A stretch of DNA of 35,111 bases from the NCBI GenBank assembly GCA_030535915.1, contig JAUNQZ010000004.1, positions 1 to 35,111 of the forward strand, in the 5' to 3' direction. The notes below the pieces were generated by a model. The model saw only the letters and a list, made by a program, of their open reading frames with translations, was not told the DNA's origin and made no database searches. This document shows positions 328-5,219 of this stretch, piece after piece (positions within the stretch are counted from its first letter, which is position 1; every line of letters begins with the position of its first letter). The position numbers were made by a program, and so were the translations under genes. This DNA is from a bacterium (GTDB lineage: Bacteria; Verrucomicrobiota; Kiritimatiellia; RFP12; DVOR01).

Positions 328-762
328 TTACTTGACTTCCTTCACACCCTTAACGGTTGCAGGATAGCCAGTGGCGGTGCACTTAATCTTCTTGAAAACA
401 AAATAGTCTTCGGTATCAATACGATAAGTTGCACCGAGCAAGTAGTCGGCTTTCTTCTCTTCGCAGGCATTATAAACAGCACCTTGCTTAGCAACGGTGT
501 TGGGATCCTTAAGGAGACTGAGACCTGGATTTGCTGTCTTAAAGGCTTCATCTGCATATCCAGAGACACCCCAAGTGATAAAGCCAAAGAGGCAGTTCAC
601 AGTTGCGTCTGCACTCACAGCAGCTTCCTGGACTTCAACATCTGCGGTATAGGCTTTTTCAACGGAGAATTCAACGGCCTTAGCACCATCACTTGTATTT
701 GCCGAAATGCAACCTGTCATAAGAGCAAGAGCAACACCAGCAAGTGTAAGCATTTTTTTCAT
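328..762 (-). CDS. Small lipoprotein, TRL-like family (tentative)
   Basis: The product is a 144-residue secreted lipoprotein. The start is taken at the ATG at 760-762 because AAAGGA lies 8-9 nt upstream; the upstream in-frame ATG at 804 would add 14 residues that spoil the signal peptide. The N-terminus MKKMLTLAGVALALMTGC is a classic signal sequence with a lipobox (MTGC), so the mature protein should begin at the lipidated Cys. The rest is a short globular domain of a kind common in PVC bacteria: an AxV.CLFGFITWG stretch, an AYNAC-like segment and the end KIKCTATGYPATVKGVKEV. It recalls TRL-like ('tRNA-associated locus') proteins, whose role is unknown. That family call is from memory and weak. 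A strong promoter and strong ribosome site suggest high expression. It is monocistronic. Confidence 0.75.
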   Translation of the reverse strand: MKKMLTLAGVALALMTGCISANTSDGAKAVEFSVEKAYTADVEVQEAAVSADATVNCLFGFITWGVSGYADEAFKTANPGLSLLKDPNTVAKQGAVYNACEEKKADYLLGATYRIDTEDYFVFKKIKCTATGYPATVKGVKEVK

Positions 763-792
763 TGTTGTATTCCTTTCGCTTTTGTGTTTCAT

Positions 793-823
793 GTGACGTT
801 CCAAGGTTTACACCTCGCGTCAC
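793..823 (-). other. 5'-UTR hairpin of the lipoprotein mRNA
   Basis: GTGACG (793-798) pairs with CGTCAC (818-823), and inside it AGGT (804-807) pairs with ACCT (812-815) around a four-base loop. From the promoter spacing the transcript should begin at about 822-823, so this hairpin would form at the very 5' end of the mRNA. A hairpin there is known to protect some mRNAs from decay. That role here is inference. Confidence 0.5.
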
Positions 824-998: not shown

Positions 999-1060
999 TA
1001 TGACAAATGACATGGCAAATGGCACGATGGCGTGTCATAAGAGTATGCCAAATATGGCAC
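999..1060 (+). promoter_or_regulatory. Candidate upstream activator region of the dnaK promoter (TGGCA repeats)
   Basis: ATGGCA/G words occur at 1012, 1019, 1027 and 1054, and the same TGGCAC word forms the -24 element at 1102. TATGACA (999-1005) is inverted as TGTCATA (1033-1039). TGCCA (1046-1050) is inverted as TGGCA (1055-1059) around 4 bp. Such palindromes about 50-100 bp upstream are where enhancer-binding proteins of sigma54 promoters usually bind. The role assigned here is inference from position and symmetry. Confidence 0.4.
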
Positions 1061-1101: not shown

Positions 1102-1117
1102 TGGCACGCCTCTTGCA
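1102..1117 (+). promoter_or_regulatory. Sigma54 (-24/-12) promoter of dnaK-groS-groL
   Basis: TGGCACGCCTCTTGCA matches the sigma54 consensus TGGCAC-N5-TTGCA exactly, with the GG (1103-1104) and GC (1115-1116) dinucleotides 10 bp apart as required. Transcription would start near 1128, giving a leader of about 104 nt. I see no CIRCE operator (TTAGCACTC-N9-GAGTGCTAA) and no convincing -35/-10 pair in this intergenic region. A TTATAG word overlaps the -12 end but lacks a good -35. Confidence 0.65.
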
Positions 1118-1141
1118 TTATAGGGATGTGAAGATTCGATG

Positions 1142-1210
1142 TTGCCGACGGTTGGCAATCATACGATTTTTAATAAAAGGTCTCGCGTAGAGGCCGGGTC
1201 TTAAAAAGAC
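1142..1210 (+). other. dnaK leader with two short hairpins
   Basis: Within the predicted leader, TTGCC (1142-1146) can pair with GGCAA (1154-1158). Further down GTCTT (1198-1202) can pair with AAGAC (1206-1210), just upstream of the ribosome site AAAGGA (1219-1224). Stems of five base pairs are weak. A temperature-sensitive role is only a possibility. Confidence 0.3.
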
Positions 1211-1231
1211 TTTTAAAGAAAGGAAAATACA

Positions 1232-3124
1232 ATGAGTAAAGTTCTTGGTATTGACTTGGGTACGACCAATTCTTGCATGGCAATCATGGAAGGTGGCGAA
1301 GCACGTGTGTTGGAAAATGCAGAAGGTCAGCGCACGACGCCCTCGATCGTGGCCTTTGCTGCAAATGGTGAACGTTTGGTTGGCTTGCCTGCAAAGCGTC
1401 AGGCCGTGATGAATCCAAAAGGTACAATTTATTCTGTGAAGCGTTTCATGGGTCGCAAGTTTGATGAAATGCAGAAGGAAATCGCAATGGTTCCTTATGA
1501 AGTTACCCGTGCGGCAAATGGTGACGCTGCAATTAAGGTCGGCGATAAGACTTATTCTCCGCCCGAAATCTCTGCTATGATTTTGGCAAAGTTGAAGGCT
1601 GACGCTGAAATGCGTTTGGGTGAGCCTATCACGCAGGCCATCATTACGGTTCCGGCATACTTCAATGACTCTCAGCGTCAGGCTACGAAGGACGCAGGTA
1701 AGATTGCAGGTCTCGAAGTGCTCCGTATTATCAATGAACCTACAGCAGCTTCGTTGGCTTATGGTTTGGATAAGAAGAGCGATGAAAAGATTGCTGTTTA
1801 TGACTTCGGCGGTGGTACGTTTGATATCTCCGTGCTCGATATCGGCGACGGTGTTTTCGAAGTGAAGGCGACCAATGGCGATACTCAGCTCGGCGGTGAC
1901 GATGTTGACCAGGCCATCATGCAGTGGCTCTTTGATTCCTTCAAGGCTCAGACTGGCATTGACCTCTCTAAGGACAACCAAGCCATTCAACGTATTAAGG
2001 AAGCTGCAGAAAAGGCGAAGGTTGAACTCTCCAGCGCTCAGACGAGCGATATCAATCTCCCCTTCATCACGATGGATGCTACAGGTCCTAAGCACTTGAC
2101 CGAATCCCTCTCTCGTGCAAAGCTCGAACAGCTCGCTGATAGCTTGGTGGAACGCACCGTTATGCCTTGCCGTAAGTGTATGGAAGATGCGGGCATCTCC
2201 TCGGTTGACGAAGTCGTTCTCGTTGGTGGTCAGACCCGTATGCCTCGCCTCCAGGAAAAGGCAAAGGAAATTTTCGGCAAGGAACCCCACAAGGGCGTGA
2301 ACCCTGACGAAGTCGTTGCAATGGGCGCTGCTATTCAGGGCGGTATCTTGAAGGGTGAAGTGAAGGATGTGCTCTTGCTTGACGTGACCCCGCTTACACT
2401 CTCGATTGAAACCTTGGGTGGCATTGCTACTCCGTTGATTGATCGTAACACCACGATTCCTTGTAAGAAGTCTGAAGTCTTCTCGACGGCGGTTGACAAT
2501 CAGCCCGGCGTGGAAATCAAGATTTGCCAGGGTGAACGTAAGATGGCCGCAGATAACAAGTTGCTCGGTCGTTTCAACCTCGAAGGTATTCCTCCAGCAC
2601 CTCGTGGCGTGCCACAAATCGAAGTGACTTTTGATATCGACCCTAACGGCATCCTCAATGTGACTGCTAAGGATAAGGGCACGGGCAAGGAACAGAAGAT
2701 CACAATCACGGCTTCTTCGGGTCTCTCCAAGGACGAAATCGAAAAGATGCGTGAAGACGCAGAACGTTACGCGAAGGAAGACGAAGAACGCAAGAGCGCT
2801 ATCGAAACCCGCAACCAAGCAGAACAAATGGCGTATCAGGCTGAAAAGATGCTCAAGGAAAATGGCGATAAGATTCCTGCAGAAACCAAGACGCAGATTG
2901 AAACGGCGATCAAGGAACTCAAGGATGCTCTCGCTGGCACCGATAATGTAGCCATCAAGGCGAAGCAGGATGCGCTTGTGCAGATCCTCCAGACCGCTGG
3001 CGCTGCAATGTATCAGCAGGATGGTGCTGGCGCTGGCGCGGCTCCGGGTGCAGAAGGTCCCACGCCTGAAGCAGAAAAGAAGCAAGATGACAATGTCGTT
3101 GATGCTGATTTCAAGATGAACTAA
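1232..3124 (+). CDS. dnaK: Molecular chaperone DnaK (Hsp70)
   Basis: ATP-dependent Hsp70 chaperone of the cytoplasm that binds and releases unfolded segments of proteins. It is full length (630 residues). The nucleotide-binding domain carries GIDLGTTNS (6-14), [12 protein letters not shown] (167-178), [10 protein letters not shown] (191-200) and the threonine of NGDT (218), matching the autophosphorylation site of the family. [10 protein letters not shown], the [14 protein letters not shown] linker/substrate domain and a Gly/Ala-rich tail ending [10 protein letters not shown] follow. The start is fixed by AAAGGA 7 nt upstream. The gene leads a cluster with groS and groL. Its usual partners grpE and dnaJ are not next to it, and neither is hrcA. 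Control appears to come from the sigma54-type promoter at 1102-1117. Confidence 0.98.
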
Positions 3125-3133
3125 TTTTTCGCT

Positions 3134-3156
3134 CCCGTGTGCCTCGTGCACACGGG
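3134..3156 (+). other. Intercistronic hairpin between dnaK and groS
   Basis: CCCGTGTGC (3134-3142) and GCACACGGG (3148-3156) form a 9-bp GC-rich stem with a 5-nt loop, starting 10 nt after the dnaK stop. No T-run follows (AATCCTAACA), so full termination is unlikely. It could protect or mark a processing point between the dnaK and groSL parts of the message, or act as a partial terminator. Confidence 0.6.
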
Positions 3157-3197
3157 AATCCTAACACAACAATTTATTAAAGAAAAAGGAAATGAAT

Positions 3198-3494
3198 ATG
3201 GCTAATACTCCCGCAATTCGTCCTCTTGGCGACCGCGTGCTCGTCCTCCCGAACGAAGAAAAAGAAGTCACCCGTGGTGGCATCATCATCCCTGACACGG
3301 CAAAGGAAAAGCCGATGGAAGGTACCGTTATTGCGCTCGGCATTAAGCGTGATAAAGATGGCAAGGAAATGCCGTTTGACGTCAAGGTCGGCGATGTCGT
3401 TCTCTTGCCGAAATATGGTGGCACTGAAGTGAAGTTGGATGGCACAACCTACCAGCTCGTTCGTTCGGACGACCTTCTCGGCATCCTCGGTTAA
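3198..3494 (+). CDS. groS: Co-chaperonin GroES (Hsp10)
   Basis: GroES forms the heptameric lid of the GroEL folding chamber in the cytoplasm. The product (98 residues from this start) shows the family landmarks: [10 protein letters not shown] near the N-terminus, the mobile loop [17 protein letters not shown] that contacts GroEL, the GTVIALG strand, and the C-terminal [15 protein letters not shown]. The start at 3198 (MANTPAIRP) is preferred over the in-frame ATG at 3192, because AAAGGA ends at 3190, only 1 nt from the first ATG but 7 nt from the second. It lies 73 bp after dnaK and 37 bp before groL and is probably co-transcribed with both. Confidence 0.97.
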
Positions 3495-3531: not shown

Positions 3532-5163
3532 ATGTCTGCTAAGCAAATGAAGTATGAAAGCGATGCACGCCAAGCTATTCTTAACGGCGTGAGCAAACTC
3601 GCCAAGGCAGTGGCTACCACCCTCGGTCCCTGCGGTCGTAATGTTATCATCGACAAGAAGTTCGGCTCCCCCCAGATCACCAAGGACGGTGTGACCGTCG
3701 CAAAGGAAGTTGAGCTTCCCGATCCTTTCGAAAATATGGGCGCACAGATGGTGCGTGAAGTAGCTTCCAAGACCAACGATATCGCTGGTGACGGTACCAC
3801 CACAGCAACCATTCTCGGCGAAGCAATCTATCGTGAAGGGTTGAAGAATGTCACCGCTGGTGCTAATCCTCAGGCCGTGAAGCGTGGCATCGACAAGGCC
3901 GCTGCCGCTGCTGTTGAAGCTATCGCGGGCCTCTCCAAGAAGGTTTCCACTTCTGACGAAGTCGCTCAGGTTGCTACCATCTCCGCAAATGGTGACATTG
4001 AAATCGGCACCATCATCGCTGATGCGATGGATAAAGTCGGCAAAGACGGCACCATCACAGTTGAAGATGGCAAGACCACCGAAACCATTTCTGACGTTGT
4101 CGAAGGTATGCAGTTCGACAAGGGCTACCTCTCCCCCTATTTCGTGACCGCAGCTGAAAGCATGGAATGTATCCTCGATAGCCCCTATATCCTCATCTAC
4201 GAAAAGAAGATCTCCAACCTCAACGATATGCTTCCCGTCCTTCAGGGCGTAGCAAAGAGCGGTCACCCCCTCCTCATCATCGCTGAAGATGTTGAAGGTG
4301 AAGCTCTCGCAACCCTCGTTGTGAACCGCCTCCGTGGCAACTTGCAGATTTGCGCAGTGAAGGCTCCTGGCTTCGGCGATCGTCGTAAAGAAATGCTCAA
4401 GGATATCGCCATCCTCACCGGCGGCCAAGTCATCTCTGAAGATCTCGGCATCAAGCTTGACTCTGTTACCCTTGATCAGCTCGGCAAGGCAAAGCGTATC
4501 ACCATTGACAAGGAATCAACCACCATTGTGGAAGGCGCTGGTAAGACCTCTGAAATCCAAGGTCGCGTTGCTGAAATCAAGCATCAGATTGACACCACCA
4601 CTTCTGACTATGATCGTGAAAAGCTTCAGGAACGCCTCGCTAAGCTCGCTGGCGGTGTCGCTGTCATCAAAGTCGGCGCACAGACCGAAGCTGCGATGAA
4701 GGAAAAGAAGGATCGTGTTGACGATGCTCTTCACGCAACCCGTGCAGCTGTGGAAGAAGGCGTTGTCCCTGGTGGTGGTGTTGCTCTCCTCCGTTGCCAG
4801 AAGGCTGTGGAAGATTGTGCAGCAACCCTCGCTGGCGATGAACGCATCGGCGCTGAAATCCTCGGCCGTGCAATGGAAGCTCCTCTCCGTCAGCTCGTTT
4901 CCAATGCAGGTCTCGAAGCTGCTCTCATCGTTGAAAAGGTGAAGTGCGCTGAAGGTAGCAATGGTTACAACGTTGCAACAGGCGAATTCGTCGACCTCAT
5001 CAAGGCTGGTGTCCTTGACCCCGCTAAGGTGACCCGTTCTGCACTTCAGAACGCCGCCTCTATCGCAGGTCTCCTTCTCACCACCGAATGCATGGTCACA
5101 GAAATTCCTGAGCCCAAGACTGCTCCTGCAATGCCTGACCCTGGCATGGGTGGCATGATGTAA
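3532..5163 (+). CDS. groL: Chaperonin GroEL (Hsp60)
   Basis: The subunit of the 14-mer ATP-driven folding chamber; 543 residues, normal length. The equatorial domain contains [10 protein letters not shown] (29-38), the nucleotide-binding [10 protein letters not shown] (86-95) and, late in the protein, [14 protein letters not shown]. The apical domain includes [12 protein letters not shown]. The C-terminus ends in the characteristic Gly/Met tail (PDPGMGGMM), shorter than in many species. AAAGGA stands 8-9 nt before the ATG. Codon choice is markedly C-ending (CTC, ATC, ACC), more so than in dnaK, as expected for a very highly expressed gene. A strong terminator follows 24 bp after the stop. Confidence 0.98.
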
Positions 5164-5186: not shown

Positions 5187-5219
5187 AAAAATCCCCGAGG
5201 CTTCTCGGGGATTTTTTTA
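5187..5219 (+). terminator. Intrinsic terminator of the dnaK-groS-groL cluster
   Basis: ATCCCCGAG (5191-5199) pairs with CTCGGGGAT (5204-5212) around GCTT, and flanking A and T runs extend the stem. Seven T residues follow on the plus strand. This is a textbook Rho-independent terminator. Confidence 0.95.

Follow-up and report, generated by a model that had tools for sequence, protein, structure and literature searches.

A conserved sigma-54-type promoter and a candidate dedicated activator for the dnaK-groES-groEL cluster of a Kiritimatiellae genome

The stretch of DNA analyzed here (the window, 35,111 nucleotides) is contig C30 of a 1.67-Mb Kiritimatiellae MAG that is 91% complete and divided among 173 contigs. 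Its named relatives, at approximately 90% DnaK identity, are gut Kiritimatiellae. The window carries the two main chaperone systems in a single cluster, in which dnaK is followed by groES, groEL, and then a strong terminator:

1232 to 3124, plus strand: dnaK (630 amino acids; ATG at 1232)
3192 to 3494, plus strand: groES (match to NF001531 over the cut-off)
3532 to 5163, plus strand: groEL (TIGR02348, 833.9 bits)
5187 to 5216, plus strand: intrinsic terminator of the dnaK-groES-groEL cluster (13-pair stem, T run)

The position of groES directly 3' of dnaK is shared by 29/30 genomes. The gap between these two genes (3125-3191) contains a strong hairpin, CCCGTGTGC...GCACACGGG, without a T run, and G+C-rich inverted repeats occupy the same position in some relatives. 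On the minus strand, a perfect TTGACA-18-TATAAT promoter at 830-859 is directed away from dnaK, and a small predicted secreted protein (328-804, minus strand) sits behind it.

The sequence-only reading had claimed an exact TGGCAC-N5-TTGCA match upstream of dnaK. This match is indeed present as TGGCACGCCTCTTGCA at 1102-1117 on the plus strand, between 130 and 115 nt ahead of the dnaK start codon. We defined a sigma-54 promoter as TGGCAYR-N4-TTGCW with fixed GG-N10-GC spacing, and the element conforms to this pattern, fitting the extra consensus positions (TTGGCACG) as well. TGGCACGCCTCTTGCA is the sole exact match in the window, compared with 0.02 expected from dinucleotide shuffles of the window, and its score of 11/11 was reached by 0/5000 shuffles of the 401-nt region upstream of dnaK. 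The known spacing between -24/-12 elements and transcription starts predicts that the dnaK mRNA would begin at 1128. The features from the promoter to the start of translation are as follows:

1102 to 1117, plus strand: predicted sigma-54 -24/-12 promoter, TTGGCACG-N4-TTGCA (exact consensus, conservation, and shuffle tests)
1128, plus strand: predicted transcription start of dnaK, 12 nt past the C of the -12 GC
1129 to 1213, plus strand: 5' untranslated region (UTR) with three predicted hairpins, the ribosome-binding site lying outside them
1218 to 1224, plus strand: Shine-Dalgarno sequence GAAAGGA of dnaK (GAAAGGAA, invariant in 12 sequences)

In an RNA thermometer, the Shine-Dalgarno sequence would be paired within the 5' UTR at low temperature; when the UTR was folded at 37°C, GAAAGGA remained outside the three hairpins and was weakly paired into the coding region. 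A short GCGG...CCGC hairpin just 5' of this GAAAGGA is kept in relatives and is possibly an mRNA stabilizer.

The same reading had reported neither a CIRCE element nor a convincing -35/-10 pair, and both absences were borne out. The best CIRCE match upstream of dnaK was 10/18, against a shuffle mean of 10.3. Sites for HspR (including the HAIR inverted repeat that marks HspR control), CtsR, and sigma32 were likewise not found above shuffle levels upstream of dnaK. Most bacteria cannot do without DnaK and GroEL, and a sigma-54 promoter is silent without its activator. Essential genes behind an activator-dependent promoter imply either that the activator is always working or that an unseen promoter provides basal mRNA. 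Control might then be in tandem, with an unrecognized sigma70-type promoter making most of the dnaK mRNA and sigma-54 adding an inducible share. The need of essential genes for basal mRNA favors this arrangement, as do a sigma70-like match of 10/12 far upstream, at 807-834 (approximately 400 nt before dnaK), and the tandem promoters described in Chlamydia (PMC8762339). We nevertheless consider it unlikely: the best plus-strand sigma70 match in 831-1231 scored slightly lower, at 9/12, a level routine in shuffles, and by eye no conserved -10 accompanies the conserved -24/-12 element.

We compared the region upstream of dnaK across 30 loci, drawn from the genome itself, from its genus, and from further families within the order. 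The -24/-12 element, recognized by its GG, precedes dnaK at all 30 loci, 63 to 130 nt from the ATG. The dinucleotides on which the sequence-only reading had staked its claim are thus retained, GG in 30/30 and GC in 28/30, with GT replacing GC in L008 and L009. The strict pattern is present in 27/30 genomes, or 29/30 if TTGT is allowed. A second, named set comprised 64 dnaK loci that were labeled Kiritimatiellae, Lentisphaeria, or Verrucomicrobia or were unassigned; it overlaps the first in part, includes some unreliable record labels, and yielded strict matches at 36/64 loci versus a shuffle rate of 0.001. A public record, L066, is labeled Klebsiella pneumoniae and has a Verrucomicrobiota-like dnaK with a sigma-54 element; it is probably a mislabeled bin. 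No strict match was found at 15 outgroup dnaK loci (Nitrospirota, Desulfobacterales, Chloroflexi, and others). Among 224 upstream regions of control genes from the same loci, the element occurred at none except clpB; the ten control matches were all clpB genes that the filter had left in. The comparison across relatives decides for a predicted sigma-54 element upstream of dnaK.

In the genome under study, clpB is directly preceded by a second predicted sigma-54 promoter with similar upstream repeats (L127 / G000:C9:8572-8587). This element, TTGGCATGAGGATTGCA, starts 47 nt from the ATG, and AAATGGCATAAGCGGCGTGCCAATGTGGCACAG upstream of it resembles AAATGGCACGATGGCGTGTCATAAGAGTATGCCAAATATGGCACAG in the dnaK region. 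A spurious 67-amino-acid antisense frame overlaps the site. The clpB element is found in 15/15 genus members and at most clpB loci of other families; three clpB upstream regions from outside the genus (L243, L246, and L249) had no convincing site. A search of the genome with the relaxed consensus returned 40 matches, 38 of them inside coding frames, and the only promoter-placed ones were those of dnaK-groES-groEL and clpB. Exact matches on contigs C14 and C68 were rejected as promoters, as they lie inside or antisense to coding genes, and the 226 matches to a one-mismatch pattern were mostly uninformative. The 16-mer at 1102-1117 could in principle be a chance match, with some other conserved element explaining its position, and as a general caution a match to a consensus does not establish function. 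Conservation across families and the recurrence of the element at a second chaperone locus, clpB, contradict this explanation, which we regard as very improbable.

Just upstream of the dnaK element, at 1013-1061, is a cluster of TGGCA/TGCCA half-sites that had gone unmentioned in the sequence-only reading:

1013 to 1017, plus strand: TGGCA half-site, the outermost of the cluster (direct repeat D3)
1020 to 1025, plus strand: TGGCAC half-site of a putative activator site (UAS), from the enrichment of TGGCAC/GTGCCA
1032 to 1037, minus strand: GTGTCA, a degenerate inverted half-site, from reading of the sequence
1045 to 1060, no strand assigned: ATGCCA-AATA-TGGCAC inverted half-site pair, similar to GTGCCA-ATG-TGGCAC upstream of the genome's own clpB

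Half-site clusters are found at the same place upstream of dnaK in relatives. We counted TGGCAC/GTGCCA within the 115 nt above the element and obtained 43 in 13 dnaK regions of the genus, versus 2.1 expected, and 45 in 15 clpB regions, versus 2.5 expected. The count was zero at nine further sigma-54 promoters from the genus, which belong to genes for glutamine synthetase III, glutamate synthase, and a PII protein. The upstream repeats set the dnaK and clpB promoters apart from the nitrogen sigma-54 promoters. In other families the repeat is GTGNGACA, with 14 occurrences versus 0.2 expected at dnaK and 8 versus 0.3 at clpB. Repeated specific sites upstream of the promoter, a mark of activation by NtrC-family proteins, are therefore present at the level of sequence.

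Sigma-54 itself is available: rpoN is present in the genome, in 56/59 genomes overall, and in 33/33 good genomes of the order. Absence of rpoN and loss of GG/GC in relatives were two of the three refuting conditions set by the sequence-only reading; both were checked, and the outcome favored that reading each time. The encoded RpoN has the DNA-binding and core-binding domains, and its activator-interacting domain scored below the threshold. The dedicated AAA+ activator that the sequence-only reading expected also has a candidate, P0002 (contig C74), the sole intact one found in the genome. P0002 is a receiver (REC)-AAA+-Fis HTH protein with a Walker A motif and an intact GAFTGA loop, and it has a close match in 59/59 genomes. 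Its gene lies downstream of a PAS histidine kinase gene and upstream of a gene for a DnaJ-zinc-finger protein, and approximately 3.4 kb separate this kinase-activator operon from the clpB promoter in G005 and G002. The product of the operon's third gene (L037:224-994, minus strand) carries DnaJ-type CxxCxGxG zinc fingers and what looks like a signal peptide; zinc-finger neighbors of the activator are also found in G005 (L223), G023 (L201), and G042 (L210), though not in all genomes.

The recognition helix of the activator in the genus is LGIPLRTLYRR (LGISVRTLYRR in one member), accompanied by the repeat GTGGCACA. In other families it is LGISRRTLHRK or LGISRRTLIRK, accompanied by GTGNGACA. Because helix and repeat shift together in what amounts to one phylogenetic split, the correspondence is consistent with recognition of the repeats by P0002 rather than proof of it. 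We infer from these features that P0002 may bind the dnaK and clpB repeats.

A different activator might instead act at dnaK, for example a second AAA+ protein of the sigma-54 activator family, P0003 (L038:9833-11323, minus strand), which has an FHA domain and a PF00158 domain, or one encoded in sequence that the assembly lacks; at 91% completeness in 173 contigs, a further activator could have been missed. We rejected P0003 for this role, since its GAFTGA loop is missing or degenerate (ELFGNGTTPSALE). Sister species encode a further intact activator, of the GAF type, and its gene adjoins those for glutamate synthase and glutamine synthetase III. Given these neighbors, the GAF protein suits the nitrogen promoters, which are free of repeats. 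Sigma-54 promoters at the glutamine synthetase III, glutamate synthase, and PII genes were observed in genus genomes (L153-L181); in the genome under study we found neither an intact GAF-type activator nor a nitrogen-gene sigma-54 site. Control of dnaK by an activator other than P0002 is, in our judgment, improbable.

HrcA and RpoH were sought in the same 59 genomes. HrcA was found in none of them, with 7/14 control genomes positive, and with CIRCE also missing from the dnaK region, neither component of class I control was found. RpoH over the curated TIGR02392 cut-off was found in 0/59 genomes, and no sigma32 promoter above shuffle level precedes dnaK. Matches to TIGR02392 below the cut-off were discarded as RpoH candidates, being mostly frames of approximately 650 to 1080 amino acids, as expected of the housekeeping sigma factor.

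Taken together, the universal presence of rpoN in good genomes, the retention of the element in relatives, the activator candidate, and the lack of HrcA and of any RpoH that passes the curated cut-off support the sigma-54 promoter reading. We propose that the -24/-12 element at 1102-1117 would serve sigma-54 RNA polymerase as the promoter of dnaK-groES-groEL. P0002 would be phosphorylated by its neighbor, the PAS histidine kinase, and, as a single NtrC-family two-component activator, would bind the TGGCAC/GTGCCA repeats at 1013-1061 and hydrolyze ATP, whereupon the dnaK promoter would open. P0002 would also drive clpB, so that dnaK, groES, groEL, and clpB would form one sigma-54 proteostasis regulon standing in place of HrcA/CIRCE or sigma32. 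We consider this explanation as a whole, with sigma-54, P0002, and the kinase driving the dnaK-groES-groEL and clpB regulon, to be highly probable. The main heat-shock chaperone genes of this gut bacterium, which is uncultured, and of its order as a whole appear to be switched on by sigma-54 and one dedicated activator, with none of the usual heat-shock regulators in that role.

The signal would presumably be heat or misfolded protein. The promoter could also be real and respond to another cue (redox, energy, or starvation), with chaperone output linked to growth or to the envelope. The PAS kinase offers no hint of a heat sensor, and the DnaJ-type zinc-finger protein of the activator operon, with its apparent signal peptide, could point to the envelope. 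However, the regulon found in the genome consists of dnaK-groESL and clpB only, which is the classic set of cytosolic heat-shock genes, and searches for HrcA and RpoH found neither; we view a non-heat cue as rather unlikely. A broader version of the proposal holds that Kiritimatiellae, along with part of Verrucomicrobiota and Lentisphaeria, rely for their heat-shock response solely on an ancestral sigma-54/NtrC-type regulon that replaced HrcA/sigma32; that sigma-54 was kept only for proteostasis in the reduced genome; and that activator and operator specificity co-changed between families. This we put forward tentatively, as having slightly less than an even chance of being correct.

Under the proposed sigma-54 control, production of Hsp70, Hsp60, and ClpB throughout a bacterial order seems to depend on a two-component activator that consumes ATP. 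All parts of the system were identified from sequence, which yields a proposed function for a conserved regulator, P0002, and a transcription start predicted to the base. The two promoter-placed matches suggest that sigma-54 has been kept in a small genome for two promoters only.

Heat-shock control is taught as a matter of sigma32 or of HrcA/HspR/CtsR. The sigma32/RpoH and HrcA/CIRCE systems have the same target genes as the proposed regulon, but here neither regulator nor site was found. In Myxococcus xanthus, HsfA/HsfB control lonD. This is likewise an NtrC-like activator with a kinase acting on a heat-shock gene, but there the target is a single protease gene, and the organism has many regulators besides. 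The sequence-only reading had called sigma-54 control of chaperones an uncommon design; such control is supported here, but it is less unprecedented than was claimed (PMC12316311, PMC8762339). In its passages on chaperones, a 2025 survey gives Bacteroidota and Planctomycetota as the groups in which GroEL/GroES/GrpE/DnaJ/DnaK and ATP-dependent proteases are predicted to be under sigma-54 (PMC12316311). Those systems resemble the present cluster in having chaperone genes under -24/-12 promoters. The same passages name Bacteroidota and Planctomycetota and not Verrucomicrobiota or Kiritimatiellae, and they give no activator or upstream site for the chaperones, whereas the present proposal specifies one activator, its site, and a regulon of two promoters. 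A literature search for sigma-54 together with heat shock in Kiritimatiellae, Verrucomicrobia/Verrucomicrobiota, and Lentisphaera, with most subscription journals outside its scope, returned no prior report.

In Chlamydia trachomatis, a sigma66 and a sigma54 promoter stand in tandem before hrcA-grpE-dnaK; upon heat shock AtoS/AtoC rise and rpoN falls (PMC8762339). Chlamydia belongs to the same superphylum and, like the present genome, has a sigma-54 promoter before an Hsp70 operon and a small genome that encodes an AtoC-type activator along with its kinase. It differs in keeping HrcA and a sigma66 promoter; the genome described here lacks HrcA, and groESL and clpB come under the proposed control as well. 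Relative to these systems, what is apparently new is the bacterial group, the inclusion of dnaK-groESL and clpB together under what is seemingly their sole control, and the proposal of both an activator and its site.
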